Assembly (NCBI RefSeq): GCF_003555505.1
Contig: NZ_CP032152.1
Location: 1,907,001-1,971,000, forward strand
DNA from: Thermosynechococcus sichuanensis E542
Lineage (GTDB): Bacteria; Cyanobacteriota; Cyanobacteriia; Thermosynechococcales; Thermosynechococcaceae
DNA: 64,000 nucleotides
Reading direction: 5' to 3'
This document shows, in pieces, positions 3,144 to 36,899 of the stretch (positions are counted from its first letter, which is position 1; each line of letters starts with the position of its first letter). The notes below the pieces were generated by a model. That model was not told the origin of the DNA, ran no database searches, and saw only the letters and a program-made list of their open reading frames with translations. Both the position numbers and the translations under genes were made by a program.

Positions 3144-4603
3144 CTGGAGTTTTAGATCGCCCCTATACGATGGCGGATTGGCGGGGGGGTACCGAATCCC
3201 TCACTCAAGAGTATGACTACTGGATTGATGATGTCGAAGGTACGGTGCCCACAGATTTGGTAGGGACGCTCTACCGCAATGGCCCTGGGCTGTTGGAGCG
3301 TGGGGGAGTGCCCTTAGCTCATCCCTTTGATGGCGACGGCATGATCTGTGCCTTTCGTTTTGAGAATGGACGGGTGCATTTTCGCAATCGCTACGTACGT
3401 ACCGCCGGATTTTTGGCGGAGGAAAAAGCAAATCGCCTTCTCTATCGCGGTGTCTTTGGCACCCAAAAACCGGGGGGATGGCTGGCTAATTTCCTCGATA
3501 CCCGCGTCAAAAACATTGCCAATACCCATGTGATCTATTGGGGAGGCAAATTACTGGCACTCTGGGAAGCGAGCCTGCCCCACCGCCTTGACCCGGTGAC
3601 CCTAGAAACCATTGGCCTCGATAACTTAGACGGTCTGCTCAAGGAGAGTGATGCCTTTGCCGCACATCCCCGCTTTGATCCCCAGACGCAGCGACTAGTG
3701 AATTTTGGTGTCAAGCCTGGCCTCAGTACCCGCATTACGCTCTATGAATTTGATGCCAGTGGTCAGTGTGTCTCGCAGCCCGTGTTTCAGATTCCGGGGT
3801 TTGCCTTTATCCATGATTTTGCCCTCACCCCCAACTACGCCATTGTTTTCCAAAATCCGGTGCAGCTCAATCCCCTGCCCTATCTGCTGGGACTGCGGGG
3901 CGCTGCCCAGTGCATTCAATTCAATGCCAAGGAACCGACACGGGTTTGGCTGCTGCCTCGTCGGGGTGGTACTCCCCAGATGCTGACGATGCCCGCCTGT
4001 TTTGTCTTTCACCATGCCAATGCCTACGAAGCTGGGGATGAAATTCATGTGGAGTCCATTGCCTACAGCCACTTTCCCAATCTGGAACCGGGCATGGATT
4101 TTCGGGAGGTGAATTTTGCCGCGCTGCCCTCCAGTTTGCTGTGGCGGATTCAATTGAACCCCAAAACCAAGGCGGTGGATTGGCAAGTGGTGAGCGATCG
4201 CCCCTGTGAATTTCCCGTGGTGCATCCAGCGAAGGTGGGGCAACCCTATCGCTACACCTATTTGGCGGCGGGGCATGATCCGAAAACCAATGCGCCTCTC
4301 CAGGCACTGTGGCGGTGCGATCGCCAGACGGGCGAGGAACAGTTTTGGTCGGCGGCGCCGCGTGGTTTTGCCAGTGAACCGATTTTTGTGCCTCGGGGTC
4401 TGCAAAAGGGTGACTTTCTCTGGCAGGGTGCCCAAGGGGAAGAGGATGGCTGGCTCTTGCAAGTGGTCTATGATGCCAGTTGCCACAAATCGCAGTTACT
4501 TATTTTTGATGCGGCAGCCATTAGCGCTGGCGCCGTGGCACGATTGCGCTTGAAACACCACATTCCCTATGGTCTCCACGGTTCCTTCACCACAGCGGTC
4601 TAG
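3140..4603 (+). CDS. Carotenoid cleavage oxygenase (apocarotenoid-15,15'-oxygenase type)
   Basis: Non-haem iron dioxygenase of the RPE65/carotenoid oxygenase family. The 487-residue protein is a seven-bladed propeller by family knowledge. Four iron-ligand histidines can be placed: H176 (AAHPRF), H225 (FIHDF), H291 or H292 (FVFHHANAYE) and H480 (GLHGSF). Length and motif spacing match Synechocystis ACO, which cleaves apocarotenals to retinal; cleavage of full-length carotenoids cannot be ruled out. The start ATG overlaps the stop of the transporter gene, and the CYTH gene starts four bases after the stop, so these genes form one transcription unit. Retinal could serve as a chromophore or signal, but no rhodopsin gene is in the window. 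Confidence 0.9.
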   Translation: MTGVLDRPYTMADWRGGTESLTQEYDYWIDDVEGTVPTDLVGTLYRNGPGLLERGGVPLAHPFDGDGMICAFRFENGRVHFRNRYVRTAGFLAEEKANRLLYRGVFGTQKPGGWLANFLDTRVKNIANTHVIYWGGKLLALWEASLPHRLDPVTLETIGLDNLDGLLKESDAFAAHPRFDPQTQRLVNFGVKPGLSTRITLYEFDASGQCVSQPVFQIPGFAFIHDFALTPNYAIVFQNPVQLNPLPYLLGLRGAAQCIQFNAKEPTRVWLLPRRGGTPQMLTMPACFVFHHANAYEAGDEIHVESIAYSHFPNLEPGMDFREVNFAALPSSLLWRIQLNPKTKAVDWQVVSDRPCEFPVVHPAKVGQPYRYTYLAAGHDPKTNAPLQALWRCDRQTGEEQFWSAAPRGFASEPIFVPRGLQKGDFLWQGAQGEEDGWLLQVVYDASCHKSQLLIFDAAAISAGAVARLRLKHHIPYGLHGSFTTAV

Positions 4604-4606
4604 GCA

Positions 4607-5080
4607 ATGGGCATCGAAATTGAGCGCAAGTTCCTTGTCACAGGCGAAGCATGGCGATCGCTGGCCACGAGTATGTCCCAATTTGCCCAGGGCTACCTGT
4701 CCACAGTTCCTGAGCGCACTGTGCGTGTGCGTCTTGCGGGTGACCAAGCATGGATCACAATTAAGGGCAAAGCCAGCGGTGGCCAACGCCGTGAGTATGA
4801 GTATGCTATCCCCGTTGCTGATGCAAAGGAACTCCTCGAGGAATTGTGCCTACAACCCATCATCCAGAAAAACCGCTATCGCATCCCAGTGGGTGATCTG
4901 TGTTGGGAAGTGGATGAATTTACTGGCGCCTGTACTGGCCTGATTTTGGCAGAAATTGAACTGCCCCGTGCTGACTATCCCCTGACTTTACCCCCTTGGA
5001 TCGGCCTTGAGGTGACCGATGACCCCCGCTATACCAATGCCTACTTAGCGGAGCATCCCTATCAAGAATGGTCAACCTGA
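4607..5080 (+). CDS. CYTH domain protein (probable inorganic triphosphatase)
   Basis: The 157-residue protein begins with the CYTH signature ExExK (E4-I-E6-R-K8) and keeps the alternating acidic and basic strands of the triphosphate tunnel fold, including RVRLAG, WITIKGKA and the late acidic motif LAEIELPRADYPL. Characterised bacterial relatives hydrolyse tripolyphosphate, and some make cAMP or cut thiamine triphosphate; tripolyphosphatase is the most likely activity. It lies three bases after the carotenoid oxygenase gene and 46 bases before the M20 amidohydrolase on the same strand. It is a complete single-domain form without the C-terminal CHAD domain seen in some relatives. Confidence 0.87.
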   Translation: MGIEIERKFLVTGEAWRSLATSMSQFAQGYLSTVPERTVRVRLAGDQAWITIKGKASGGQRREYEYAIPVADAKELLEELCLQPIIQKNRYRIPVGDLCWEVDEFTGACTGLILAEIELPRADYPLTLPPWIGLEVTDDPRYTNAYLAEHPYQEWST

Positions 5081-5126
5081 ATTCCTGAGATTCGATAGGA
5101 TACAAAAATATCGCCACGCCTTCCCT

Positions 5127-6308
5127 ATGCTTGCTCGGATTCGCCAGATTACCCAAACCCTCACCCCCCGCCTCATTGAAATTCGTCGCCATCTGCACCG
5201 CTACCCCGAATTGAGTGGTCAAGAACACCAAACTGCTGCCTATGTGGCTGGGGTGCTCTCCTCCGCCGGCTTGACCGTACAGCAGGATGTGGGCAAAGTG
5301 GGGGTGATTGCGGAACTGGCGGGGAACCCCAAGGAGCAGCGGCTCTTGGCCATTCGCACCGATATGGATGCCCTGCCGATTCAAGAGCGTACAGGCCTAG
5401 AGTTTAGCTCGAAACATACTGGGGTGATGCACGCCTGCGGTCACGATGTCCACACAACAGTGGGTCTGGGCACAGCGATGGTATTAGCGGCCCTCAAGGA
5501 GGAGTTCCCCGGGCGCGTACGGTTTATCTTTCAGCCTGCGGAAGAAATTGCTCAAGGGGCAAGCTGGATGATTGCCGATGGCGCTATGAAAGAGGTGAGT
5601 GCCATTTTATCGCTCCATGTATTTCCGACCATTCCAGCGGGGGAAGTGGCGGTGCGCTATGGTGCCTTGACGGCTGCTGCCGATGACATTGAATTAACGA
5701 TTTTGGGCGAATCGGGTCACGGTGCCCGTCCCCATGAAGCGGTGGATGCGATTTGGATTGCCGCTCAAGTGATCAGTGCTCTGCAACAGGCCATTAGCCG
5801 CACGCAGAATCCCCTGCGACCCGTGGTGGTCACCTTTGGCAAAATTCAAGGGGGACGGGCTGCCAATGTGATTGCCGATCAGGTGACACTTCAGGGAACG
5901 GTGCGATCGCTCCATCCGGAAACCCGTGCTACACTGCCAACGTGGATTGAGCAAATTGTGGCCAATGTCTGCCATGCCTACGGTGCCCGTTACAAACTCC
6001 ATTATCGGCGGGGCGTACCGGGGGTGGAAAATACGCCCTACCTGTCGCAACTGCTGGCGGAGGCGGCGACTGATGTGGTGGGGGCGCCCCATGTGCATAT
6101 TCTGCCCGAACCGTCCCTTGGGGCAGAGGATTTTGCCCTTTACCTAGAGCACGCTCCCGGTGCCATGTTTCGCCTTGGGGTGGGGTTTCGCGATCGCCCC
6201 AACTACCCCCTGCATCACCCAGAATTTGATGTGGATGAACAGGCCATTCCCGTGGGCGTGATGACCCTTGCCCATGCCGCCTGTCGCTATTGGCAGATTC
6301 CCTACTAA
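5127..6308 (+). CDS. M20 family amidohydrolase (N-acyl-amino-acid hydrolase)
   Basis: Zinc- or manganese-dependent peptidase M20D member of 393 residues, related to hippurate, N-acetyl-L-amino-acid and IAA-conjugate hydrolases. Visible motifs are HRYPELSGQE near residue 25, MHACGHDVHTTV around 101-112 (metal ligands), FQPAEE around 135, a central dimerisation domain (ESGHGARPHEAVDAI) and SLGAEDFALYLEHAPG near the C terminus. Cytoplasmic: no signal peptide. It ends in a four-base overlap with the convergent permease gene. Its upstream neighbours on the same strand are close enough for one operon. The natural substrate is unknown. Confidence 0.9.
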   Translation: MLARIRQITQTLTPRLIEIRRHLHRYPELSGQEHQTAAYVAGVLSSAGLTVQQDVGKVGVIAELAGNPKEQRLLAIRTDMDALPIQERTGLEFSSKHTGVMHACGHDVHTTVGLGTAMVLAALKEEFPGRVRFIFQPAEEIAQGASWMIADGAMKEVSAILSLHVFPTIPAGEVAVRYGALTAAADDIELTILGESGHGARPHEAVDAIWIAAQVISALQQAISRTQNPLRPVVVTFGKIQGGRAANVIADQVTLQGTVRSLHPETRATLPTWIEQIVANVCHAYGARYKLHYRRGVPGVENTPYLSQLLAEAATDVVGAPHVHILPEPSLGAEDFALYLEHAPGAMFRLGVGFRDRPNYPLHHPEFDVDEQAIPVGVMTLAHAACRYWQIPY

Positions 6309-7444
6309 TGACGATTGGCATGGTAGAGCATCCCGAGGGCGATCGCACTGACGATCATCTTCGGTAACCAACTGGCTACGATGGGTGAGACGGCTCCCCC
6401 CTCGCCAAAGGCAGTGAAAATGAATGCCCCCACATAATAGCCAAAAATAATCGCCACACTGAGGCCAAAGGCACGCCCCTGTCCTTGGCGAGGAGAACTG
6501 ATGCCCAAGACAGCACCGACAACGGCAAAACTGAGGCACAAAAAGGGAAGGGAGAGCTTTTCCTGCAACTGCACCCGCCACTGCCGCAGACGTTTGGTAT
6601 CGCCACTTTCCGCCAAAACTTGCAAGTAATGATAGATTTCGCGGCTGGTCATAAACTCTGGCGCCCGCGTTTCCATCGCTAAATCAAGGGGAGTGCGGGG
6701 ATAGGGAAACCTTCGTTCTGCAAAGGTCTCGGCCGCATCATACTCGCGATCGCCCGTCAGGTGGTGGTAGGTGCCCTGCCGAAAGAGCCACGCCGAACCG
6801 TGCCACTGGGCTTCCTGCGCCGTAATAATTTCCCGCAATTGTCCCTGCTCAAAGTTCAAGACCGTCACTTGCCCCATGACCTCGCCATCAAAACGATGGG
6901 CAAAAAAGAGTTGCTGAAGTTGCCCACTAGCAAAACGACGGTAGAAAATATTGCGGGTCTGAAACGTGGGTTGGGGGCGTTGAATCGCCACTTCTAAGGT
7001 CTTGATGGCGCGGTAGGCCATGGGGGGTGCCACCAGTTCATTGAGGGCAAAGGTGAAGAGCAAGGCACAGAACCCCGCTAAGAGCGCTGGCCGCACCAGA
7101 CGCACCGCACTCACCCCACAGCTTTTACAGGCAATCAGTTCACTGCGACGGGAGAGCTGACTATAGGCAAGCAGCGAACCAAAGAGCATTGCCATGGGAA
7201 TGCCCAGCACCGCAAAGGTGGGCAAACGTAGAAAAAAGACTTGAATGGCACTGAGGATGCCAAGGTTGTGCTCCACCATATTGCGAATGAGGTAGAACAC
7301 CGTACCAATAACGGCAGCGATCGCCGTAAAAATGCCAAAACCAAAGATAAAGGGGCGAATCATCTCCCCCAAGATGTAGCGATCCAACAGGGAGACTCGC
7401 GGTTGCCAAGGCATCTTTTGTAGGGGTCGGGCGATCGCTAGCAT
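6305..7444 (-). CDS. LptF/LptG (YjgP/YjgQ) family permease
   Basis: Integral inner-membrane protein of the LptF/LptG family, which in E. coli extracts lipopolysaccharide from the inner membrane with the ATPase LptB. The 379-residue protein starts SLLDRYILGEMIRPFIFGFG after a short tail, has three N-terminal hydrophobic segments, a periplasmic jelly-roll-like region (about residues 140-270) and three C-terminal segments. Cyanobacteria usually carry one such gene. It begins three bases after the stop of the photolyase-like gene and belongs to a three-gene minus operon with an ABC ATPase. That ATPase is of DrrA type rather than a typical LptB, so a functional pairing is only a suggestion. Confidence 0.85.
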   Translation of the reverse strand: MLAIARPLQKMPWQPRVSLLDRYILGEMIRPFIFGFGIFTAIAAVIGTVFYLIRNMVEHNLGILSAIQVFFLRLPTFAVLGIPMAMLFGSLLAYSQLSRRSELIACKSCGVSAVRLVRPALLAGFCALLFTFALNELVAPPMAYRAIKTLEVAIQRPQPTFQTRNIFYRRFASGQLQQLFFAHRFDGEVMGQVTVLNFEQGQLREIITAQEAQWHGSAWLFRQGTYHHLTGDREYDAAETFAERRFPYPRTPLDLAMETRAPEFMTSREIYHYLQVLAESGDTKRLRQWRVQLQEKLSLPFLCLSFAVVGAVLGISSPRQGQGRAFGLSVAIIFGYYVGAFIFTAFGEGGAVSPIVASWLPKMIVSAIALGMLYHANRH

Positions 7445-7447
7445 GCT

Positions 7448-7858
7448 TTATAGCCCCAAGCGGGGTTTGGCCAATTTCCAATAACGAAAGAATCGTTTCA
7501 AATCGGCATCGGCAGGTAATGTGACAAAGGGTTCTGACTCTAGAATCTCCAGCGGATAGGCCAATTGCTGACAGATGGCGCGAAAGCGAGGGCTAGGACT
7601 GGCCATTGTGGCCACGCGATCGCCCCCGTGGACTTCGACAAAAGCATTCACTAAGGGGGCTACCTCACCACGATACATCTGCACCGGTAAATCCAGCAAA
7701 CACTCATAGAGAAAGACCAGCCGCTTCAGACGAATTTGCCACTCCTTGAGTAGTGCTACATCCCAAACAAAAATGGCCGGCGCACTCGGATAGCGCTCAA
7801 AGATGGGCGCCTTAGGGTCAAGACAATCCCCATGCACCCAAAGAATTGGCTGCCCCAT
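7448..7858 (-). CDS. Photolyase-like N-terminal alpha/beta domain protein
   Basis: A 136-residue protein resembling only the N-terminal alpha/beta (antenna-binding) domain of DNA photolyases and cryptochromes: PILWVHGDCLDP at the start, APAIFVWDVALL, then RLKRLVFLYECLLDLPVQMYRGEV and later VNAFVEVHGGDRVATM. The flavin-binding helical domain is absent. Its start codon overlaps the stop of the ABC ATPase gene by one base (TAATG), so it is translationally coupled. It could be a conserved stand-alone cyanobacterial protein or a reduced photolyase; the intact frame and tight operon position favour a real gene. No catalytic function can be assigned. Confidence 0.72.
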   Translation of the reverse strand: MGQPILWVHGDCLDPKAPIFERYPSAPAIFVWDVALLKEWQIRLKRLVFLYECLLDLPVQMYRGEVAPLVNAFVEVHGGDRVATMASPSPRFRAICQQLAYPLEILESEPFVTLPADADLKRFFRYWKLAKPRLGL

Positions 7859-8886
7859 TAGCGTTGCATGGCCTCTTTTTTCAACTGTTTGCTGTCCCGC
7901 TGCGCTGCTGCTGCTAAATCCGCATCCAAGAGCGTTTGACCTGTGGCCGCCAAATAGACATCATCTAAACTGGGTCGCGACTGTGCCAAGCTGAAAAGGG
8001 GGAGTCCTGCTTCCTCTAGCGCCGTTCTAATGGCTGCGATCGCCACGGTGGCATCTGTAACCACCAGATTCAAAGAATTGCCTTGGTTGGCATTAATCAG
8101 TACTGATTTTACGCAGTCCAATTGACTGACTAGGGCCTGTGCCATTTGTGCCTCCTGACGCGGTGTGAATTCCCGCACCCGCAACGTGACGCGATCGCCA
8201 CCAATATTGGCCTTGAGTTCCTCGGGGGAACCACTGGCAATCACCCGCCCCTGATCAAGAATCACCAAGCGATCGCTCAGGAGATCCACTTCCTCAAGGT
8301 AGTGGCTAGTCAAGATAATCGTCAGTCCTTGGGCCTTGAGATCCCGCAGCACATCCCAAATCACTTGGCGGCTTTCAATGTCGAGGCCGACGGTGGGTTC
8401 ATCTAAGACAAGCACTTGGGGTTGATGCAGCAGACCCGCCGCCAAATCAAAGCGTTTGCGAATGCCACCCGAGTAGGTACCACACTGGCGATCGCGCCAT
8501 TCCCATAAATCCAACCGTGTCAGTACTGCTTCAATGCGTTCTGGAATCAGGGCACGGGGAATGTGGTACAGCGCCGCCTGCAATTCCAGAAATTCTTGAC
8601 CCGTGAGGATTTTATCGAGGGCAACCTCTTGGGCAACATAGCCTAATTTTTGGCGCACTAAACGGGGTTGGTGGAGTACCGAAAGACCACAGACTTCCAA
8701 CACCCCAGCATCTGGTCGCGAGAGGGTACATAGACAGCGCAGTGTTGTCGTTTTCCCTGAGCCATTCGGCCCTAGCACCCCAAAAATTTCCCCTTGATGA
8801 GCGCAAAAGGAGACATCGGCCACTGCTGTAATGGCACCGTAGGACTTCTTGAGATGTTCGACCTTTACCGTGGCTGTCATGGTCAT
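7858..8886 (-). CDS. ABC transporter ATP-binding protein (DrrA/NatA-like exporter class)
   Basis: Cytoplasmic nucleotide-binding subunit of an ABC exporter, 342 residues. Walker A is GPNGSGKTT (about residue 39), the signature region is TYSGGIRKRFDLA, Walker B is VLVLDEPTVGLD, and the switch histidine follows in LTSHYLEEVD. A C-terminal extension of about 100 residues (ANIGGDRVTLRV to SLDDVYLAATG) is typical of the daunorubicin-resistance DrrA group. No ABC-2 type membrane partner is adjacent; the operon instead continues with a photolyase-like domain and an LptF/G-type permease. The cognate membrane subunit may be elsewhere, or be that permease. Confidence 0.88.
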   Translation of the reverse strand: MTMTATVKVEHLKKSYGAITAVADVSFCAHQGEIFGVLGPNGSGKTTTLRCLCTLSRPDAGVLEVCGLSVLHQPRLVRQKLGYVAQEVALDKILTGQEFLELQAALYHIPRALIPERIEAVLTRLDLWEWRDRQCGTYSGGIRKRFDLAAGLLHQPQVLVLDEPTVGLDIESRQVIWDVLRDLKAQGLTIILTSHYLEEVDLLSDRLVILDQGRVIASGSPEELKANIGGDRVTLRVREFTPRQEAQMAQALVSQLDCVKSVLINANQGNSLNLVVTDATVAIAAIRTALEEAGLPLFSLAQSRPSLDDVYLAATGQTLLDADLAAAAQRDSKQLKKEAMQR

Positions 8887-8985
8887 TCACTCTGTGTGTG
8901 ATTCCCTTAACATTTTGACAGATATTGCTTCTTGCTTTGGTGCACGTGCTACAACAGCAACTAGAGCCTATTGGGTAGGTTTCCC

Positions 8986-9942
8986 ATGGCCACTGCCGAA
9001 ACTGCGCCGATTGCCGAAGTTATGCACCTCACGGGCGATCGCCTGCGATTGCGGATTCAAGAACTGAAAACGGATGCTGCCTTTCGCGATTCCCTGAGTG
9101 CCTACCTGAAAACCCTCCAAGGTATTAAATCTGTTCACGTTAACCCCCTTGCCGCCTCAATTACCATTGAGTATCACCTCAAGCAAATCACGCCCCTACA
9201 ACTGCTGGCGGCCATTCAATTTTGGGGGGATGTGCAGATCATTGGCCAAGGCAATAAGGGCTTGCAAAACCTCACCCGCGCCTTTGATCTCGAACCCGAA
9301 GAGGTGGGCAACAAACTCACCTCCATGGGCGGATTTCTCATGGGCGGCTACGTGGGTGATCTTCTCGGTGGCATGGTGGGGGGAACGGCGGGTGGTCTGT
9401 TGATGGGGCCTGCGGGTGCGGTCATGGGGGTGCAAGTGGGCACCTTTGTTGGCGGTGTCATCGGTGCGCGACTGGGGATGGAAGCCACTGAGCAAATCAC
9501 CCAACTGCAATTTACTGCCCTTGAGGAAACGCCGGAACGGCTCGCGAAAACCCTTGAAATTCGCACGGGTGACCAAGTGGGTGGCATCGCCGGCGAAATT
9601 GCCGGCGGCTTGGCGGGGCAAGTGGTCTTGGGTCCTGTGGGGGAAACCGTCGGGCGGGTGGTGGGCAATATGGTTGGTTCGCAGTTGGGAGAAGATCTCG
9701 GGCGACAGTTGGCAGCGCCCTCCCCTGAGGAACCTCGTCCCCCATTCCTGTATCTAGAGTGGTGGGTGAAAACCAGTCAAGCCTTTACCAAGGAAACGCT
9801 ATTGGCGACCCTCGGGGGCATGGTGGCACGGGCAATTCTGGGGCCTCAAGCTGAAGTTGAGGGCATCCGAGCCGGTACCCGCATGAGTCGTCATCTGGAT
9901 ATGCAACCGTCCAACACCGCAGCAAAAGAGAAAAAAGTATAA
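8986..9942 (+). CDS. HMA-like domain and glycine-zipper membrane protein
   Basis: Residues 1-80 have the ferredoxin-like pattern of a heavy-metal-associated domain (HLTGDRLRLRIQEL, LQGIKSVHVNPLAASITIEYH) but lack the CxxC metal site, so it matches HMA_2-type non-binding domains. Residues 110-240 are rich in glycine-zipper repeats (GGMVGGTAGGLLMGPAGAV and similar), suggesting packing of helices in a membrane. The first ATG at 8986 fits the start; an upstream in-frame TTG adds only five residues. It precedes the PIN-TRAM gene by about 50 bases. Function unknown. Similar cyanobacterial proteins are annotated only as conserved hypothetical or HMA2 proteins. Confidence 0.75.
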   Translation: MATAETAPIAEVMHLTGDRLRLRIQELKTDAAFRDSLSAYLKTLQGIKSVHVNPLAASITIEYHLKQITPLQLLAAIQFWGDVQIIGQGNKGLQNLTRAFDLEPEEVGNKLTSMGGFLMGGYVGDLLGGMVGGTAGGLLMGPAGAVMGVQVGTFVGGVIGARLGMEATEQITQLQFTALEETPERLAKTLEIRTGDQVGGIAGEIAGGLAGQVVLGPVGETVGRVVGNMVGSQLGEDLGRQLAAPSPEEPRPPFLYLEWWVKTSQAFTKETLLATLGGMVARAILGPQAEVEGIRAGTRMSRHLDMQPSNTAAKEKKV

Positions 9943-9991
9943 TCCTAAAGTAATGGCCTGTGGAGATGTCCAGCGCGACAGGAGCGAACTA

Positions 9992-11071
9992 ATGCTCGAT
10001 ACCATCTTACTCCTCATTATCGTCGTGATGGGAATTGCCGTTGGCTTCAACAGCATTGACCTACTCCCAGAAACGGTTCTTGCTCAAGTCGCCAATGTGC
10101 GGGGATTGCAGTGGGTCATGGCTGGCTTTGGCGCCATCGTTGGCATTGCCCTTGGTTTATTGTTGCAGTCCCTTTACCATCGTCTCGAGCGCAGTATCCG
10201 CCAATTGTCCCCAGAAACGCTCTTGTCGCGGGCTGTGGGTCTGGTGGTGGGGTTGCTCTTGGCCAACTTGATGCTGGCACCGATTTTCCTGTTGCCCATT
10301 CCCAAAGATTTTTCCTTTATTAAACCCCTGATTGCTGTTCTCACCAGCATTCTCTTTGCCTACTCAGGAACCACTTTGGCCGATAGCCACGGCCCTGCCC
10401 TGCTGCGGCTAATTAACCCCAATGCTGTAGCCAGCAGCCTCTTAGCCGAAGGGATGCTTAAGCCTGCCCGTGCGAAGGTACTGGATACCAGTTGCATTAT
10501 TGATGGCCGCATTGAGGCGCTGTTGAATCTCGGGGTACTCGAAGGGCAAATCATTGTGCCCCAATTTGTGCTTCAGGAGTTACAACTGATTGCCGATGCG
10601 GGGAATGAGCAAAAACGGATTCGCGGTCGGCGGGGCCTCGATGTTCTCAATCGTCTCCAAGCTAGTTTGGGCGATCGCATTGTCATTCACTCCGCCGACT
10701 ATCCAGAATTAACGACAGTGGATGCCAAGCTAGTGCGGCTGTGCCAAGAGATTCATGGAACCCTTGTGACCAACGATTTGAATCTGAACAAAGTTGCCCG
10801 CTTCCAAAAAGTGGATGTCTTTAACGTCAACGAGTTAGCCCAAGCCCTGCGCCCCATCTATCTTCCCGGCGATACGCTGGAGCTGAAAATTCTCAAGGAA
10901 GGGAAAGAACCGGCTCAAGGGGTGGGCTACCTTGAGGATGGCACGATGGTGGTTGTCGAAGAGGGCGTCGATCACATTGGCGATCAGTTGTCGGTGGTCG
11001 TCACCAGTGCCCTGCAAACCTCGGCAGGCCGCATGATTTTTGCCCGTCTGCAAATGCCAACGATGGCCTAA
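9992..11071 (+). CDS. Membrane-anchored PIN/TRAM domain protein (YacL-like)
   Basis: A 359-residue protein with four N-terminal transmembrane segments (about residues 3-125), a PIN nuclease domain (LDTSCIIDGR, then VPQFVLQELQLIAD, and TVDAKLVRLCQE...LVTNDLNLN with the acidic residues of the active site) and a C-terminal TRAM RNA-binding domain (EGKEPAQGVGYLEDGTMVVVE). This is the YacL-type arrangement widespread in bacteria; an RNase role is inferred from the PIN residues. I chose the ATG at 9992 because GGAG lies about eight bases upstream and the membrane segment begins at once; the ATG at 9953 would add 13 unlikely residues. The cellulose synthase gene follows 31 bases later. Confidence 0.85.
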   Translation: MLDTILLLIIVVMGIAVGFNSIDLLPETVLAQVANVRGLQWVMAGFGAIVGIALGLLLQSLYHRLERSIRQLSPETLLSRAVGLVVGLLLANLMLAPIFLLPIPKDFSFIKPLIAVLTSILFAYSGTTLADSHGPALLRLINPNAVASSLLAEGMLKPARAKVLDTSCIIDGRIEALLNLGVLEGQIIVPQFVLQELQLIADAGNEQKRIRGRRGLDVLNRLQASLGDRIVIHSADYPELTTVDAKLVRLCQEIHGTLVTNDLNLNKVARFQKVDVFNVNELAQALRPIYLPGDTLELKILKEGKEPAQGVGYLEDGTMVVVEEGVDHIGDQLSVVVTSALQTSAGRMIFARLQMPTMA

Positions 11072-22619: not shown

Positions 22620-23525
22620 ATGAGCTACGCATGGGTGAGGGGTGCGACGCTAGGAGCAACGGGTTTAGTGGCCATAGCTTTACCCGCAGTGGGTCAAGTC
22701 CAACCCCTCAGTGGCGAACAAATTAACGAGATTGCCCGCAACATCACGGTCTTGATTGTGGGGAAAGATTCCCACGGTTCCGGTGCGATTATTTCCCGCT
22801 CCGGTTCGACCTACTATGTACTTACGGCAAAGCACGTTGTCAATCGTAAGGATAATTACCGCATAATTCCCATTGATCAGCAGGCCTACGCCGTTGATTT
22901 CAATAAGATTAAATTTTTGCCGAATACAGATTTAGCTATTGTGGAATTCACGAGCGAGAAAAAAGACTATCAGGTGGCGACTCTCACAAACTCTGACTTT
23001 GCCAAGGAAGGATCACAGGTCTTTATTTCAGGGTGGCCCCAGCCGGGGGGCAGTGGTCAGTTGGTGCGGCAGTTTACCGATGGCCGTATCTCCGGCTTTT
23101 TGATTGAACCCATTGATGGCTACAAAATGATCTACACCAATGTTACCCGTCGCGGCATGAGTGGTGGCCCTGTTTTGGATAGTGCAGGGCGTGTGGTCGG
23201 GGTTCATGGTCTCGGTGATACAGAAGACCCCCGCTCCCTTGAACGCCAAGGCTTGAGTCCAGAGGCGGCAGCGAGTATTGCCAGCTTGATTAAGCCGGGG
23301 TTTAATTACGCGATTCCCATTAACACCTTTCTGACAGGTGCGCCAGCGGCAGGTGTATTTCTCTCCCTGAAAGTGGATAATCAGGCGATCGCCAGTGACA
23401 CTGCGCCTGTGGTTGTTACCGTACCGAGTCAACCCGATAGTCGCGATCGCATTGAGAACATCAATTCAATTTTGAATACTGTCAATACGGGTGTAAGTAT
23501 CATCCGGAGTATCTTTGGCTTCTAG
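22620..23525 (+). CDS. Secreted trypsin-like serine protease
   Basis: A 301-residue protein with a signal peptide (about residues 1-25, ending near ALPAVGQ) and a chymotrypsin-fold domain. The catalytic triad can be placed as H72 (TAKHVV), D104 (NTDLAIVEF) and S181 (RRGMSGGPVLD). There is no PDZ domain, unlike HtrA; the last 60 residues are a linker and a short hydrophobic tail. Cyanobacteria carry several such proteins of unknown substrate. It is monocistronic with its own upstream gap of about 115 bases and is followed by a DUF928 gene about 70 bases on. Confidence 0.85.
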   Translation: MSYAWVRGATLGATGLVAIALPAVGQVQPLSGEQINEIARNITVLIVGKDSHGSGAIISRSGSTYYVLTAKHVVNRKDNYRIIPIDQQAYAVDFNKIKFLPNTDLAIVEFTSEKKDYQVATLTNSDFAKEGSQVFISGWPQPGGSGQLVRQFTDGRISGFLIEPIDGYKMIYTNVTRRGMSGGPVLDSAGRVVGVHGLGDTEDPRSLERQGLSPEAAASIASLIKPGFNYAIPINTFLTGAPAAGVFLSLKVDNQAIASDTAPVVVTVPSQPDSRDRIENINSILNTVNTGVSIIRSIFGF

Positions 23526-23594
23526 AAAAAATTCCAATGGCCTGTTGAACTGAGTCCCGGTTCATTGCCTGTTCAATTGCGAGGATTGAGTAAT

Positions 23595-24338
23595 ATGGCT
23601 ATTCAAGTTGGGATGCGTCCCATTGTCGTTCCCCTAAGTTTGGCAGTGGTGATGATTGGGGCGATCGCCCATGCCTCTTGGGCAAGTTATCGTCCACCCG
23701 CCAACATTGGCCGCCCGGGAAACCGTGAGGGAGCTGCAACGCGAATTGCCCGACCCATACTGCTGCGCGAGAGTACCGGTAGCACCGAAAGCTGTCTGAC
23801 TGAACCCAAACAAACTGTGGTTGCCCTCGTGCCCAAGGATAACAATGGCTTCAGCAGCACTCCCACCCCCACCCTCTATAGCTTCATTCCCGCCAACAAG
23901 GGCGCAACCCTAACCCTGACGCTGCGGGATCCCCAAGGCACAGAAGTCTATCGCCAAGAGCGTCCTGCCCCGACAGAAGCGGGTATTATTGGCTGGCTCG
24001 TGGAGCATGTTTCCCTCAAAAGCGGTGTGGATTACCAGTGGCAACTCACCCTCACCTGCACCAATAGCACCACAGCCGTCAAAACCATCAGTTGGTTTCG
24101 ACTAAAGCCCTTATCGCCAAGCCAACAGCAGCGAATTGTTCAGGCCAAAGATGTGGCGGATGCCTTTGCCATGGCGGGCTATTGGTACGATACCCTCGAT
24201 CAACTGGCCAAACAACGGTTGACTGAGCCGCAGAATGCCCAACTCCAGCAAAAATGGCAAGCCCTCTTGCAGTCTCCCGCTGTCCAATTGGCCAATGTGG
24301 CGAATCAACCCCTCGTTCCCTTACCACCCCAGCCCTAG
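23595..24338 (+). CDS. DUF928 domain protein, exported
   Basis: From the ATG at 23595 the protein has 247 residues, with a signal-like hydrophobic segment (IVVPLSLAVVMIGAIAHASWAS). The DUF928 domain follows: VVALVPKDNNGF, SFIPANKGATLTLTLRD, GVDYQWQLTLTC, and AYWYDTLDQLA-like residues near the end (AMAGYWYDTLDQLAKQ). DUF928 proteins are abundant in cyanobacteria, often near CHAT or TPR proteins, with no known function; the first half looks like a beta-sandwich. It ends in a four-base overlap with the convergent SbcD-like gene. Confidence 0.83.
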   Translation: MAIQVGMRPIVVPLSLAVVMIGAIAHASWASYRPPANIGRPGNREGAATRIARPILLRESTGSTESCLTEPKQTVVALVPKDNNGFSSTPTPTLYSFIPANKGATLTLTLRDPQGTEVYRQERPAPTEAGIIGWLVEHVSLKSGVDYQWQLTLTCTNSTTAVKTISWFRLKPLSPSQQQRIVQAKDVADAFAMAGYWYDTLDQLAKQRLTEPQNAQLQQKWQALLQSPAVQLANVANQPLVPLPPQP

Positions 24339-30517: not shown

Positions 30518-31054
30518 ATGGCTGTTTTTGAAGGCACTTATCAAGTTCTGGGAACGCCTCGCTTTGGCATTGTGATTTCCCGCTTCAATGACCTAATTAC
30601 GACCAAGCTGCTCGAGGGTTGCCAAGATTGTCTGCGTCGTCATGGCGTTGACCCCAATCCCCACGGTTCGCAAGTGGACTATGCGTGGGTGCCGGGTAGT
30701 TTTGAAATTCCCCTTGTGGCAGCTCAACTGGCGGCTAGTCGTCGCTATGCTGCCATTATTTGTCTAGGGGCAGTCATCCGTGGCCAAACCCCCCACTTTG
30801 ACTATGTGGCTGCTGAAGTCACCAAAGGCATTGCCACCGCCTCTATGCAAACGGGTGTGCCGATTATCTACGGCATTCTCACCACCGACACGATGCAACA
30901 GGCTCTTGAACGTGCTGGCATTAAAAGCAATAAAGGTTGGGAATATGCCCTCAATGCCCTCGAAATGGCCAACCTGATGCAAACGCTGCCTAGCCCCATC
31001 AATCCACCAACAGCTCAACTCAGCCCCAGTCCCCCGGTTCTCACGGAGGGGTAA
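30518..31054 (+). CDS. ribH: 6,7-dimethyl-8-ribityllumazine synthase
   Basis: Penultimate enzyme of riboflavin synthesis. The 178-residue protein has [40 protein letters not shown], the catalytic region [23 protein letters not shown] (His in PHFD) and [20 protein letters not shown]. The last 20 residues are a Pro/Ser-rich tail beyond the usual family end. It probably has its own promoter. Confidence 0.95.
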
Positions 31055-31088
31055 TCCAAAACCGTGAAGCAGAAATTGCTCCCTGAGA

Positions 31089-34000
31089 CTACCAAGGGCT
31101 GCCAATCATCGTAAATCCTGCCCAAAAGTACGGATGGGAAAGTTGACGCCCACCCCCAGCTTGAACTTCTTGGGGCAAAGGAATTGCAAGCCCTCCCCGC
31201 GGTCCAGCACTACGCAGATGATTCTCCTCAATCACAACCTGCTGACGGATCAGGGCAAGCTGCCCTTGGCGCAAAGCCTCTGCTTTAATCGGGGCAGTTT
31301 TCAACTGGTCATAAAATGCTGTCATCAGTGCTAGTGTTCCCTCATCACTGACATACCAAAGGCTAGCAACCGAACTTTTCACACCTGCTTGGAGTGACAG
31401 TCCAGCAAATCCAAGCTCTGCATTGGTATCTCCCACCGCTGTGCGACAGGCACTTAGCGTCATTAGCTCTGTAGGTGGCTGGAATAAACGCAACTGCCGT
31501 AATTGAGTCATTGAAAGCTGGCTATCCCAAAACTGAATATAGGAATTTTGCGGCTTACCCGCATTAAATTCACCATGGGTCGCTAAATGCAGGATAGGGT
31601 AAAGACTGCGCCGCCGCTGGGTTTCCAAGTTTGAGACCGTAAAGGCTTCATTGAGGAATACTCTTCCTTGTCCTACCAGTTGAGTAATGGTTTGTAGCTC
31701 AATCGGAACCGCTGGCAAAGGACTTTGATTTGTGAACTGAGAGGCACCCATTGCCAATACAGAAGCATTTTGCAAAGACTGGTAGCGAGTATCTACTAAG
31801 TTAATGCTGGGAATCAAACTCAGATTATAGCGTTCCACTAGAAACTGGCCATTACGACCCATTGGACTATCACTGACTGCTGAAGAAACAAGATTTGACC
31901 CCGTGTGCAAAGCAGCCATCGGCATACTTCTTAACCCCTGATCAAGGGCAAAAACCAGTGTATTAATGCCTCGTGCTTGTAATTCAGCATCAACACCCCC
32001 CATGATCCATTGGTAAAGCTGCTGCGCAAAGGGTAAGTAGGATTCGCCATTAGTTTTCGTTGGATCTCGCACCTCACGATTAAAGGCAGCAATAACGCGG
32101 CGCACTGCCTCCTGAGAAACTCGAACAGGCTGATAAATGGGTTCTCCTTCTGGTGTAATGATGAAAATATCCAACTGTTCAGGTCGCCAAAAGACATAGC
32201 TCAGGGCAGGTTTTTGACCTGTTTCTTGAGCCATACGCCCCAGTAATTCTTTGATTTGATCAATGTCAAGAAACTGGAGTTCCTCTTGATTAGGCGTGCT
32301 CAACAATTCACCAAAGTACTCACTAAACTCAAAGGAATAAAGCTGCTGAAGCAGTTTAATAGCACTGTTGTAGTCTCCTTGATCAAAAGCAGTACTGATT
32401 TGCTGACGGATGATCTCAACACCGGGGAAGTAAACGACTTGAGCGGTATTCTGGGGCAGTTGAGTACCTTTTGTCTCCTCGCCGAATAAAATCCGACCCA
32501 GATTCTCTTGAATTTGGGGTTCTGGAGCTGTTGGTGTGGACGGCTCCGTGGGTGGGGTTGGTGGTGTGGACGGCTCCGTGGGTGGGGTTGGTGGTGTGGA
32601 TGGCTCCGTGGGTGGGGTTGGTGATGTGGACGGCTCCGTGGGTGGGGTTGGTGGTGTGGATGGCTCCGTGGGTGGGGTTGGTGGTGTGGATGGCTCCGTG
32701 GGTGGGGTTGGTGGTGTGGATGGCTCCGTGGGTGGGGTTGGTGGTGTGGATGGCTCCGTGGGTGGGGTTGGTGGTGTGGATGGCTCCGTGGGTGGGGTTG
32801 GTGATGTGGATGGCTCCGTGGGTGGGGTTGGTGGTGTGGATGGCTCCGTGGGTGGGGTTGGTGGTGTGGATGGCTCCGTGGGTGGGGTTGGTGATGTGGA
32901 CGGCTCCGTGGGTGGGGTTGGTGGTGTGGATGGCTCCGTGGGTGGGGTTGGTGATGTGGACGGCTCCGTGGGTGGGGTTGGTGGTGTGGATGGCTCCGTG
33001 GGTGGGGTTGGTGGTGTGGATGGCTCCGTGGGTGGGGTTGGGGGTGTGGACGGCTCCGTGGGTGGGGTTGGTGGTGTGGATGGCTCCGTGGGTGGGGTTG
33101 GTGGTGTGGATGGCTCCGTGGGTGGGGTTGGTGGTGTGGATGGCTCCGTGGGTGGGGTTGGTGGTGTGGATGGCTCCGTGGGTGGGGTTGGTGGTGTGGA
33201 TGGCTCCGTGGGTGGGGTTGGTGGTGTGGATGGCTCCGTGGGTGGGGTTGGGGGTGTGGATGGCTCCGTGGGTGGGGTTGGTGGTGTGGATGGCTCCGTG
33301 GGTGGGGTTGGTGGTGTGGATGGCTCCGTGGGTGGGGTTGGTGGTGTGGATGGCTCCGTGGGTGGGGTTGGGGGTGTGGATGGCTCCGTGGGTGGGGTTG
33401 GTGGTGTGGACGGCTCCGTGGGTGGGGTTGGGGGTGTGGATGGCTCCGTGGGTGGGGTTGGGGGTGCTTGAGAAACCCGATAGAGGAAACCAGAACCAGA
33501 GAATAGGGCAGGCTCAGGATAGACGGTGTCGAACTGCTCTGAACCCGTGAGGCCGCCATTGATATTGAGGTTTGGGTCAGTTGAATAAACTAGCCAACGA
33601 CCATTGGGGGTACTAAAGACACTAGAGCCATAGTTGTTAATAAAGTTATTTTCCGCAGCAAGGACAATCGCATCCCCAACGCCAAAGGCAGAAATTGGTG
33701 CATTGAGAACAATATCACCTGTTAATGTTTGTAGAAAAATGCTGCGCCCTGTAATGCCTGTGGGGTTAACACTGCCAACGGTGAGGGTACCGTTATTGAC
33801 AAATTGCAAATCACTCGAACTATTCAACTGAGCAGCTAGTGTTCCCACTTGGTTATTGGGGTTGGTTAGTATTGCGCTGCCATTTTGTAAAGCTAGACCC
33901 AAGCTACCAGCTTGGATAGGTGCACTTTGGGTTAGATTCCCATTACTTAAACGGAGAATGAGGGTGTTGCCGTTGGTATTGATGCCGGTGGTGAGGCCAT

Positions 34001-36899
34001 TTACACCATTATTGAAACTAATGATGTCTAGTGCACCTTGATTATCTAGATTAATATTGCCAGCAACATTTCCTGAGAGCGCTCGAAATTCATTGTTGGC
34101 ATTGTTGAGGGTGAAAGTTCCCTGCCCCAACAGTTGAAGCGTGCCCGCAGAAATAGCATGAGTGCCTTGGTTAACACCGCCACCGCTATTGAGCGTCAGA
34201 TTGCGACCATTGAGATTTGTCGTGCCAGAGCCATTGAACTGAATACCTAGGGAACTTCCGCTGGGGGTTTGTAGGGCGAGATTGTAGTTGAGGCTGAAGG
34301 GGCGAACATCAATGAGACCAGTACCACTGGGATGACCAATGGTAACCAAGGAAAAAACGCCTGTAATTTGGTTGAGGAGAAACTGATCAACAATCAAATC
34401 ACCTGCTGCCCCATCACCAACACCGACAGCAGTGTTACCATCAATGGGTTGAAAAACAAGGCGACCGGCTCCCGTACTTTGAATATCTAGCAGGGAAGGA
34501 GAATCACCAGAAATTTCAATCCCCCCTTGGGCTGCCAAGGTTAGCACACCATCTTGAACAGCGAATGTCAGGGAGTCAGAGACTTCCATGACCAGACCGG
34601 AATTACCATCAGTGCCGCGACCTTCGATAAGAATATTCCCATTCCCAGTCGTTCTGACTTCAGCAGGGTAATCTGTGTCAGTAGTAGCGATGAAGAGAAC
34701 ACCAGCACCGGATTCCCCCCCTGTGCCACTGAGGGTGATGTTGCCACCTTGACTGGTGATGCTGGTGAATCTGCTCTGGATGCCCTCTTGGTTGAAGGCA
34801 AAGCCTGTACCGCCAGTACCCCTTAGGGTAATATTCCCTGTCGTGGTTTGAATTTCTGACTCTTCAAGACCAATGCCAATGTTGGAAAATACTTCAAGGC
34901 CGTTGCCCCCGGTACCCGTTAAGGTCAGATTGCCAGCCTCGGCTCTGATTAAGGAGTTCTGAATCCAGATACCATCCACAGCGCTATAAACGCTAGAACC
35001 ACCTGTCCCTAGAATGGTGATCTCCCCAGACCCTGAGGTGAGGATTGAACTCTCACGGATCAGCACCCCTGCTTGGCCATCAGTTGTTGCACCGCTGCCA
35101 TGAATCTTAATGTGGCCGCCATTTGCATTGAGGGTAGAGTCTTCGATAGTAACGCCAGCAGTACTGACACCGATCGCTGGACTTGTGAAGGGATCAGAAC
35201 CACCTCCCAGAATAATATTGCCACCGTTAGAAATGAGTGAGACCGAATCTAACTCAATGGCACCGGCACCGCTGTTATCGGCATCGGCATGGAGAATGAT
35301 ATTCAGTCGGCCTACTTCTGACCGAATGTCATAGGTAACGAGAATGTCATTTGCAGCTTGCAATGTCAGGGAGGCATCGCCACCACTGGTTTTGGTGATA
35401 GGAGCAAATACAGAAATGTCGCCTGCTTGGGTGCCAGTCCCGCCTGTTGTGATTATGACACTGGTGCCTAGATTCAGGGCAGCTTCAATGGCGGTATTTT
35501 CAACAAAGGCATCATCAGTGGTAGGGGTAAAAATATCAGGATTGCCGCCAGAAAATGTACCCCCACTAGTCGTGTTGTAAATGATGACATTGCGTGGGTC
35601 CAGCAGCCATGTACCGGGCTGACCATTGACTGCACTGGCATCTACTGTTCCCCAAACGCTGAGCCATTCTCGCCCAGAGGTTTCCACAAAGCCGCCATTG
35701 CCACTAAGTTGCCCCCCGCGTGCGGTGATCGTGCCGGCAAATTGAGTGCTGTTGTCTGCCCATGCAATGACGGTGCCGCCATTTCCTTGATTGAAGGCAT
35801 CCGCTGCAATCATACTGTTGCTGTTGATGAAGAGATTCTGGGCATTGAAACTGCTATGCAGTCGTTTGGTGCCAGTGGTTCCCCCCAGGTAGTCACCCCC
35901 TAAGAGAATCGTGCCGCCGCCGAGTTGACCAGAGGCGGTTAGGTTGGCATTGATGAGGGCGATATTTTGACCAGTGATCGTGATTTGACCCCCCATACCG
36001 ATGGGATTGGCAACGGAAAGGCTGCCACTGATGACTGCGGTATTTGTTGAAAGAGGAATTTTGCTGGGGTCATGAACAAGACGAATTGTGCCGTCGGGGT
36101 TTTGAATAACGCTGTTGACGGATTGTAAACCATTGCCAGTGAGTAAGCTAGGCAAGTCCACGGCAGCGATCGCTCCCGCAGTGGGTAGTCGATCCTGAGG
36201 AATTTCAAGACTGAGCAGCATTCCTGCTTGGGAGACGCGCACCATTCCTGTTTCAGGGACAGTCGCAATGTGGATATTTCCTGCGGGGGCTGCGAGTGTA
36301 CCCGTATTGATCACTTGGTGCGCCATCAGGCTGAGGGTTTGACCACTGCCCACCCTAAGCTCGCCTTCATTGATCATCAGCCCTTTACTCAGGAATTCAA
36401 AACCCGTGGGCTGACCACTGAGGGATTGATAGAGGTTCTGGCCATTGACATCAAAGATACCTCCCTCAAACAGCACCCGTTGAGCAGTGGAGGCATGGAA
36501 GGCAGCGGGAAGATTCAAACGGGCATTGGGGCCAAAAACAATTCCCGCAGGATTGAGGAGATACAGGTTACTGTTGCCGCCCGTAATTTGAATCAAGCCA
36601 TTGATGTAACTGGGGTTGCCACCATTGACCCCCGCAAGAATATTGCGAATTTGCGGATTTGAGAGAAAGTTAGCGATTTGGCCGTTACGGACATTGAAGT
36701 CACGGAAGAGGTGAAAGAGGTTTTGACCATTCCCCGATAGGCTACCACCGCTAATATCAATCTGTTGACCATTTTGGATGACGGTGGTGCCACTGCCATT
36801 GGTGGCTGGGGTAATCTGGCTGTAAGCGGCGCTACTCAACAGTCCCCAAAAGGCTAAGGCGATGGGAAGTAGGTACTGTTGTAGAGTTTTCACGATCAC
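31089..36899 (-). CDS. Two-partner-secretion exoprotein with proline-rich repeats and CHAT protease domain
   Basis: A 1936-residue exported protein. Residues 1-28 are a signal peptide (IALAFWGLLSSAAYSQ). Residues 30-170 form the filamentous-haemagglutinin TPS domain, with NPAGIVFGPNARLNLPAAF. Beta-helix-like repeats follow to about residue 1130. Residues 1143-1455 are 31 copies of a decapeptide TEPSTPPTPP, some with a Ser for Pro. The last 330 residues are a CHAT caspase-like domain with likely catalytic H1775 (LATHGEF) and C1818 (LSACRTAVGD). TPS proteins are exported through a TpsB outer-membrane pore; none is encoded in the window. The combination suggests a surface-exposed or released protease. 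The gene stands alone between convergent ribH and divergent asd. Confidence 0.9.
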   Translation of the reverse strand: MIVKTLQQYLLPIALAFWGLLSSAAYSQITPATNGSGTTVIQNGQQIDISGGSLSGNGQNLFHLFRDFNVRNGQIANFLSNPQIRNILAGVNGGNPSYINGLIQITGGNSNLYLLNPAGIVFGPNARLNLPAAFHASTAQRVLFEGGIFDVNGQNLYQSLSGQPTGFEFLSKGLMINEGELRVGSGQTLSLMAHQVINTGTLAAPAGNIHIATVPETGMVRVSQAGMLLSLEIPQDRLPTAGAIAAVDLPSLLTGNGLQSVNSVIQNPDGTIRLVHDPSKIPLSTNTAVISGSLSVANPIGMGGQITITGQNIALINANLTASGQLGGGTILLGGDYLGGTTGTKRLHSSFNAQNLFINSNSMIAADAFNQGNGGTVIAWADNSTQFAGTITARGGQLSGNGGFVETSGREWLSVWGTVDASAVNGQPGTWLLDPRNVIIYNTTSGGTFSGGNPDIFTPTTDDAFVENTAIEAALNLGTSVIITTGGTGTQAGDISVFAPITKTSGGDASLTLQAANDILVTYDIRSEVGRLNIILHADADNSGAGAIELDSVSLISNGGNIILGGGSDPFTSPAIGVSTAGVTIEDSTLNANGGHIKIHGSGATTDGQAGVLIRESSILTSGSGEITILGTGGSSVYSAVDGIWIQNSLIRAEAGNLTLTGTGGNGLEVFSNIGIGLEESEIQTTTGNITLRGTGGTGFAFNQEGIQSRFTSITSQGGNITLSGTGGESGAGVLFIATTDTDYPAEVRTTGNGNILIEGRGTDGNSGLVMEVSDSLTFAVQDGVLTLAAQGGIEISGDSPSLLDIQSTGAGRLVFQPIDGNTAVGVGDGAAGDLIVDQFLLNQITGVFSLVTIGHPSGTGLIDVRPFSLNYNLALQTPSGSSLGIQFNGSGTTNLNGRNLTLNSGGGVNQGTHAISAGTLQLLGQGTFTLNNANNEFRALSGNVAGNINLDNQGALDIISFNNGVNGLTTGINTNGNTLILRLSNGNLTQSAPIQAGSLGLALQNGSAILTNPNNQVGTLAAQLNSSSDLQFVNNGTLTVGSVNPTGITGRSIFLQTLTGDIVLNAPISAFGVGDAIVLAAENNFINNYGSSVFSTPNGRWLVYSTDPNLNINGGLTGSEQFDTVYPEPALFSGSGFLYRVSQAPPTPPTEPSTPPTPPTEPSTPPTPPTEPSTPPTPPTEPSTPPTPPTEPSTPPTPPTEPSTPPTPPTEPSTPPTPPTEPSTPPTPPTEPSTPPTPPTEPSTPPTPPTEPSTPPTPPTEPSTPPTPPTEPSTPPTPPTEPSTPPTPPTEPSTPPTPPTEPSTPPTPPTEPSTSPTPPTEPSTPPTPPTEPSTSPTPPTEPSTPPTPPTEPSTPPTPPTEPSTSPTPPTEPSTPPTPPTEPSTPPTPPTEPSTPPTPPTEPSTPPTPPTEPSTPPTPPTEPSTSPTPPTEPSTPPTPPTEPSTPPTPPTEPSTPTAPEPQIQENLGRILFGEETKGTQLPQNTAQVVYFPGVEIIRQQISTAFDQGDYNSAIKLLQQLYSFEFSEYFGELLSTPNQEELQFLDIDQIKELLGRMAQETGQKPALSYVFWRPEQLDIFIITPEGEPIYQPVRVSQEAVRRVIAAFNREVRDPTKTNGESYLPFAQQLYQWIMGGVDAELQARGINTLVFALDQGLRSMPMAALHTGSNLVSSAVSDSPMGRNGQFLVERYNLSLIPSINLVDTRYQSLQNASVLAMGASQFTNQSPLPAVPIELQTITQLVGQGRVFLNEAFTVSNLETQRRRSLYPILHLATHGEFNAGKPQNSYIQFWDSQLSMTQLRQLRLFQPPTELMTLSACRTAVGDTNAELGFAGLSLQAGVKSSVASLWYVSDEGTLALMTAFYDQLKTAPIKAEALRQGQLALIRQQVVIEENHLRSAGPRGGLAIPLPQEVQAGGGRQLSHPYFWAGFTMIGSPW
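32535..33471 (-). repeat. 31 tandem copies of a 30-bp coding repeat
   Basis: A 30-base unit containing GGCTCCGTGGGTGGGGTTGG on the plus strand is repeated 31 times without interruption, giving the decapeptide repeat of the exoprotein. Variation is limited to a few positions (gtgga T/C ggc, ggt G/A tgt and ggt/ggg), spread in blocks, which points to expansion by slippage or unequal recombination. Because 30 is a multiple of three and the unit lacks stops in several frames, long spurious frames appear on the opposite strand. Confidence 0.97.

Follow-up and report, generated by a model that had tools for sequence, protein, structure and literature searches.

A caspase-like CHAT domain on a two-partner-secretion scaffold in Thermosynechococcus: a predicted exoprotein from a broad cyanobacterial class

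Exoproteins of the TpsA type, such as FHA/FhaB, HMW1, EtpA, and HxuA, share a signal-like leader, an N-terminal two-partner-secretion (TPS) domain, and a beta-helix passenger. In CdiA and the polymorphic toxins, a TPS stick carries a C-terminal effector. The well-studied example of a CHAT protein, Craspase TPR-CHAT/Csx29 of the type III-E CRISPR systems, is a CRISPR partner inside the cell. A caspase-type fold is also found in the gingipains RgpB and Kgp, which work outside the cell and belong to another family and another secretion route than the protein analyzed here. The protease LepA of Pseudomonas aeruginosa is of another class than CHAT. LepA is exported as a TpsA protein, and the genes for TpsA and TpsB share an operon in most, but not all, systems (PMC5422565). 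HetF, a PF12770 protein, carries a transmembrane segment and is part of the divisome (PMC8406250). No description of a TPS-CHAT fusion was found in the open literature examined, which mostly lacks subscription journals, and absence from print is not claimed.

The window analyzed in this study is a stretch of 64,000 nucleotides (C1:1907001-1971000) from the genome of Thermosynechococcus sichuanensis E542, which consists of one contig of 2.65 Mb. The gene under study (31089-36899, minus strand) encodes a protein of 1936 aa in one open frame, with a TPS domain, a beta-helix, a proline array, and a CHAT domain in this order. The sequence-only reading had described one frame with a signal-like leader, a TPS domain, beta-helix repeats, 31 proline repeats over 310 residues, and a CHAT domain with a likely H1775/C1818 dyad, and this layout was confirmed. 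A caspase-fold protease on a TPS/beta-helix scaffold is supported, while an unusual nature of the fusion and contact-dependent killing are not. Unlike the TpsA exoproteins, the window protein ends in a CHAT domain, and TpsB is encoded at an unlinked position, one for two TPS-CHAT proteins.

The first start codon of the gene is GTG, with an in-frame stop 25 codons upstream. The sequence GGAGG is located 2 bases before this codon and 8 bases before a second GTG two codons in; judging by this spacing, the second GTG may be the true start. The gene stands alone. At its 3' end, ribH is convergent, with a gap of 34 bp and with thiG beyond it, and at the 5' end asd is divergent. A Pfam scan of the protein (E 0.001) found two domains only, TPS (residues 30-227) and CHAT (residues 1623-1934), and gave no match to the Peptidase_C14 profile of orthocaspases and metacaspases. 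The NCBIfam families name the TPS part only (TIGR01901, filamentous haemagglutinin N-terminal domain).

Residues 1-27 (36819-36899, minus strand) form a probable Sec signal peptide. The 12 residues starting at residue 10 make up a hydrophobic core (Kyte-Doolittle 2.25), after which comes AYSQITPA, with cleavage after AYS placed by eye; by hydropathy and position, the leader is consistent with a Sec signal peptide. The TPS secretion domain (residues 30-227; 36219-36812, minus strand) matches PF05860 with E 5.9e-32 (112 bits, cut-off 33.5) and TIGR01901. It is followed by a beta-helix passenger (residues 228-1145; 33465-36218, minus strand), which was modelled to residue 747 and is presumed to continue through the rest. 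The model of residues 27-747, built with 38 sequences, is a beta-solenoid with a pLDDT of 85. The best matches of this model were secretion proteins: HMW1 (Z 33.5), EtpA (Z 32.8), FHA (Z 26.2), and also HxuA. Haemolysin A had a Z of about 20, and unrelated beta-helices were at 15.1 and below. By this model, the N-terminal part of the protein is predicted to be a TPS domain with a beta-helix fold.

The CHAT domain (residues 1623-1934; 31098-32033, minus strand) matches PF12770 with E 2.8e-70 (237.5 bits, cut-off 24). The predicted catalytic residues are H1775 (codon 31575-31577, minus strand) within HLATHGEF and C1818 (codon 31446-31448, minus strand) within LSACRTAVG. Both are invariant in all 45 aligned CHAT domains. 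In addition, a set of 89 ORFs, each uniting TPS and CHAT within a single frame, was analyzed, including 36 from the own genome and its relatives and 53 from named loci. The catalytic Cys is kept in all 89 ORFs; the catalytic His was found by pattern in 88 and by eye, as HLGTH, in the remaining one, so the dyad is present in 89/89. This set holds no TPR-CHATs and no CHAT-only ORFs. It also leaves aside L061, L062, and L084, in which TPS was missed by phmmer and found by Pfam (L061, L062) or by open frame (L084). Alignment A2 omits L071 and L080, whose frames are cut by the stretch end, as well as rows with a TPS match of 150 bits or less.

Sequence searches of the PDB gave chance matches. The single protein had one match, Stress-induced-phosphoprotein 1, which fell on the proline stretch. 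Alignment A1 had six matches, all taken as chance; designed Pizza propellers ranked first (E 7.5e-4), and a cytidylyltransferase was also among the six. Therefore, fold comparison was needed. The modelled C-terminal module (residues 1497-1936; 31092-32411, minus strand), comprising a helical lead-in and the CHAT domain, covers the C-terminal 440 residues and was built with 41 sequences (pLDDT 91.2, pTM 0.92). Its best solved match was Craspase TPR-CHAT/Csx29 (7y84_C, Z 28.5, rmsd 3.1, 337 aligned residues), the chains of which ranged from Z 28.5 to 21; this protein was also first with Foldseek. Other matches included separase (top 5fby, Z 24.1), the transmembrane anti-sigma factor DdvA (Z 18.8), a SAVED-CHAT filament (Z 18.5), and the gingipains RgpB (4ief, Z 18.3) and Kgp (Z 17.0). 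The module is predicted from this model to have a caspase-like fold. In the model, the window protein and Craspase are alike in the CHAT fold and the His-Cys dyad. Unlike Craspase, the window protein has an export-type scaffold and no CRISPR partner, and sequence identity between the two is about 12-15%.

We consider it somewhat probable that the window protein is a TpsA-type exoprotein with a predicted catalytically competent CHAT cysteine protease (clan CD, caspase-fold). With a similarly slight lean in its favor, it would reach the surface through TpsB and work there as a protease on proteins of the surface or matrix, perhaps on itself. The protein would be exported by Sec, the one TpsB of the genome, although unlinked, would take up the TPS domain, and the beta-helix would fold outside the cell as a stalk. 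The proline array would be a stiff spacer keeping the CHAT domain off the outer membrane. The CHAT domain would cleave proteins of the own surface, the matrix, or sibling cells, and may cut its own linker, leading to self-release. We infer the passage of CHAT through TpsB, its activity, its substrate, and the role of the rod. In a phage-resistant Nostoc mutant, a mutation was found in a protein with a filamentous-haemagglutinin N-terminal domain, which its authors class as cell surface (PMC10811720).

The window protein contains one Cys, C1818, in 1936 residues, vs. 19.4 expected from the Cys content of 35 other window ORFs (1.00%). Counting from just before the TPS domain on, other cysteines are absent in 45 of the 89 TPS-CHAT ORFs and even in number in 39, including 34 with exactly two. 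The number is odd in five ORFs, which do not fit a pattern of paired cysteines. For this pattern P = 7e-8, a value that is indicative only, since the rows are related. Loss or pairing of cysteines is expected outside the cytoplasm, because spare thiols there are removed or paired. The pattern argues for export and would fit the periplasm as well as the surface.

The same pattern bears on the reading of the window protein as an ordinary adhesin, in which CHAT would be a leftover without catalytic function. Adhesins are a main class of TPS exoproteins (PMC5422565), and no TPS-CHAT activity is reported in the literature examined. However, the dyad is kept throughout the 89 ORFs, and the catalytic Cys persists in chains that otherwise largely have no cysteines or paired ones, so a non-catalytic CHAT end appears quite improbable.

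A profile search found five CHAT genes in the genome and two TPS genes, both of them TPS-CHAT. The window protein, TPS-CHAT 1, has one Cys, and in TPS-CHAT 2 the catalytic Cys is accompanied by two others. A further two of the five are TPR-CHATs, L012:5945-8635(-) and L013:5287-7878(+); their N-termini are signal-like, and from about residue 30 on they contain no Cys except the catalytic one. Both TPR-CHAT proteins of the genome are possibly exported too. In the fifth CHAT protein, which lacks a leader, 15 of the 806 residues are Cys. Thus, a signal-like hydrophobic N-terminus was found in four of the five CHAT proteins, and the earlier statement that CHAT proteases are usually cytoplasmic does not hold for this genome.

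In a FhaB-like alternative, the helix is outside and the CHAT domain is retained in the periplasm, where it would cleave its own protein or periplasmic proteins and so control stalk release. In FhaB, a C-terminal prodomain with a proline-rich region and a conserved extreme C-terminus is kept in the periplasm and processed by periplasmic proteases (PMC8263021). The window protein has the same order of helix, proline-rich region, and conserved C-terminus, and its cysteine pattern fits the periplasm too. On the other side, LepA provides a precedent for a protease that leaves the cell by the TpsA route (PMC5422565). Retention of the CHAT domain in the periplasm is considered rather unlikely.

The proline array (residues 1146-1455; 32535-33464, minus strand) consists of 31 repeats of 10 residues, 27 of them PPTPPTEPST and four SPTPPTEPST. 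It has 31 acidic residues and no K or R. At the DNA level, repeat detection found 31.2 copies of a 30-bp unit with 97% match, represented by five DNA types in irregular order. Because of these five types and their irregular order, a simple assembly artefact is disfavored, though the copy number may be wrong. The array is also overlapped by long ORFs in other frames (32300-33559, 32471-33550, and 32536-33471); these are by-products, since the 30-bp repeat has no stops.

Of the 89 TPS-CHAT ORFs, 64 show a proline-rich stretch before CHAT with a length of at least 20 aa. The longest is that of the window protein (332 aa by the same measure), followed by one of 168 aa. The proline linker before CHAT is a common feature, with different repeats in different lineages. 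The great length of the array is peculiar to the strain studied, the linkers of its close homologues being short. In five homologues, only 20-27 linker residues are aligned to the array, and in the G005 homologue the 10-residue unit is present two and a half times. Given these short linkers, the array has either grown in the lineage of this strain or been reduced in other lineages. The homologues with 20-27 linker residues in place of 31 repeats speak against the necessity of the rod for the surface protease proposed here. No conserved self-cleavage site stood out by eye in the linker.

The G002 homologue (L050, 3657-8599) is split into a TPS ORF of 638 aa and a CHAT ORF of 978 aa. This may be a broken gene or an assembly fault; thus the gene may be dispensable there, or misassembled. 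In the Thermosynechococcus NK55a genome, one unclosed gap lies in a repeat-rich haemagglutinin-like gene (PMC3907722), and the trouble in G002 may match this gap or not.

No TpsB gene was found in the 64-kb window, in agreement with the sequence-only reading. A search elsewhere in the genome found one TpsB gene, outside the window. The sole ShlB match in the genome (C1:1357271-1358239) belongs to an ORF (C1:1356641-1358365) located about 0.58 Mb from the window gene. This ORF encodes a 574-aa protein of the ShlB/FhaC type with ShlB and POTRA_2 domains and without cysteine. Since this TpsB is unlinked and is the sole ShlB match, its pairing with the window protein is by elimination, and a divergent TpsB could escape.

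Linked TpsB genes were found at other TPS-CHAT loci. Among 79 such loci, the window being excluded, 12 TpsB ORFs were found in 11, vs. 0.48 expected from the genome density of ShlB (93 matches in about 153 Mb, 39 genomes). Ten of these ORFs are located within 600 bp of the TPS-CHAT gene, and nine are divergent. In L061 and L062, the TpsB gene is directly upstream on the same strand, and the one following ORF contains both TPS and CHAT by Pfam. As controls, 33 loci with CHAT and no TPS-CHAT ORF were analyzed; in several of these, the CHAT frame runs off the contig and could represent part of a TPS-CHAT gene. TpsB was found in none of the 33 control loci (0.30 expected). In L059 (G037), an ORF at 4569-11012(-) combines a family 2 glycosyltransferase with TPS and CHAT, and a divergent TpsB gene adjoins it. 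The TPS domain there is not N-terminal, an arrangement at odds with simple Sec export of the product.

Several of the 39 genomes have more TPS than ShlB matches; therefore, TpsB service in trans may be common, and some cyanobacteria may use a single TpsB for many TPS proteins. In G012, 14 TPS matches and one ShlB match were found.

TPS and CHAT were found in one ORF in 21 of the 39 genomes, the own genome included (phmmer on fetched stretches). Pfam matches in one frame add three more genomes, G013, G018, and G020, giving at least 24 of 39; this is a lower bound, as the stretches come from part of the genomes. Two of the three added genomes were rescanned with Pfam. The fusion was also found in 47 of the 80 named loci, the top-ranking ones among 539 confirmed relatives; all 80 titles are cyanobacterial. 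Thus, the same domain order is widespread in cyanobacteria, which does not support the view that the fusion is unusual. Up to 40 CHAT matches were found in one of the 39 genomes. CHAT without TPS was found in L061:13068-14762 and in ORFs of about 450-540 aa, many of which have a hydrophobic N-terminal stretch by eye. These short CHAT-only ORFs are close relatives of the TPS-borne CHAT domains.

The slot between ribH and asd is also occupied by the homologues of G004 and G005 and by the split homologue of G002, and the G008 homologue lies beside ribH. The homologues of G001, G003, and G010 were recognized by similarity only, and their stretches show none of the flanking genes. Identity to the homologues of G005, G001, G004, G003, and G010 is 93, 85, 89, 80, and 80% in CHAT and 93, 92, 89, 79, and 81% in TPS, respectively, and 56-87% in the helix halves. 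The dN/dS values for CHAT are 0.120, 0.105, 0.116, and 0.062 vs. G005, G001, G004, and G003, the last with a saturated dS of 2.3; the value for G010 was not computable. For TPS and the helix, dN/dS is 0.05-0.16 and 0.10-0.26, respectively. By these alignments, CHAT is among the best-kept parts of the protein, and this conserved end is not the pattern of a polymorphic toxin.

The order of TPS, beta-helix, and C-terminal enzyme is the layout of CdiA, and the sequence-only reading had suggested competition by contact, in which a CdiA-like stick would deliver a CHAT toxin into neighbours. A toxin function is predicted for some caspase-like domains found at the C-terminus of toxins (PMC3482391). 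Unlike CdiA and the polymorphic toxins, the window gene has no apparent immunity gene beside it among the listed ORFs of at least 80 aa; the sole same-strand ORF at the 3' side (30764-31105) is antisense in ribH. In addition, CHAT is 80-93% identical over the five homologues vs. 56-87% in the helix, and the other TPS-CHAT protein encoded in the genome ends in the same way. Contact-dependent inhibition was therefore not upheld and is seen as very unlikely.

An anti-phage island (38112-47863) is present in the window, with a PLD-domain helicase, a DUF1156 methyltransferase, a DUF499 ATPase, and a DUF3780 protein. These four proteins exceed the NCBIfam cut-offs for anti-phage-associated proteins, and asd separates the island from the TPS-CHAT gene. 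At the homologue loci of the ribH-asd slot and beside ribH in G008, the island helicase is represented only by a 73-residue piece in G005, so the TPS-CHAT gene and the island do not travel together. An anti-phage role of the TPS-CHAT protein itself was rejected; for the CHAT region, PADLOC yielded no more than a weak match to BovA (E 3.6e-4).

A DUF928 protein with a hydrophobic N-terminus (23565-24338, plus strand; PF06051, E 1.6e-38) is encoded 6.75 kb from the 3' end of the TPS-CHAT gene and is a possible functional neighbour of it. In G004 and G005, too, a DUF928 lies near the homologue, at a distance of about 6.8 kb. In the window, a gene for a trypsin-like peptidase directly precedes the DUF928 gene on the same strand (22620-24338). 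Among the 79 other loci, 13 DUF928 ORFs were found in 12 (0.92 expected), six of the 13 within 300 bp of the TPS-CHAT gene, and 10 CHASE2 ORFs in 10 (1.03 expected). The order CHASE2-DUF928-TPS-CHAT on one strand, operon-like, was found in L075, L079, and L139. No CHASE2 was found in the 64-kb window. Genes for CHASE2 and DUF928 are clustered with WD40 genes in one cyanobacterium (PMC5587647).

These neighbours suggest a signalling module, in which an exported CHAT protease together with DUF928 and CHASE2 receptor proteins would form an extracellular proteolytic switch. The over-representation of both families (12/79 and 10/79 loci), the operon-like order in three loci, and DUF928 at 6.75 kb in the window are consistent with it. 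However, the 33 control CHAT loci also hold DUF928 (in four, 0.58 expected) and CHASE2 (in six, 0.65 expected, by the domain profile also applied to the 79 loci), so the link is one to CHAT genes at large. As TPS-CHAT-specific partners, CHASE2 and DUF928 are weakened by these controls. In the window itself, CHASE2 is absent, and DUF928 is separated from the TPS-CHAT gene by other genes. A dedicated module of this kind is thus held to be highly improbable.

A broader version is speculative and considered doubtful at best: the exported CHAT class, TPS- and TPR-borne and with several members per genome, would be a cyanobacterial extracytoplasmic signalling layer, in which a TpsB-displayed protease cuts DUF928 and switches CHASE2 and the rod sets the distance. 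If true, this layer would be a bacterial counterpart of protease-activated receptors, with a variable proline rod setting the working distance of the protease.

The window protein is a member of a broad, little-studied cyanobacterial class and not a single oddity. A widespread branch of CHAT proteins looks exported, with the catalytic Cys often being the only free thiol. The proposed surface protease makes it possible to test whether an enzyme of the caspase fold works in or beyond the bacterial envelope. The genome in question is small and encodes a single TpsB for its two TPS-CHAT proteins.
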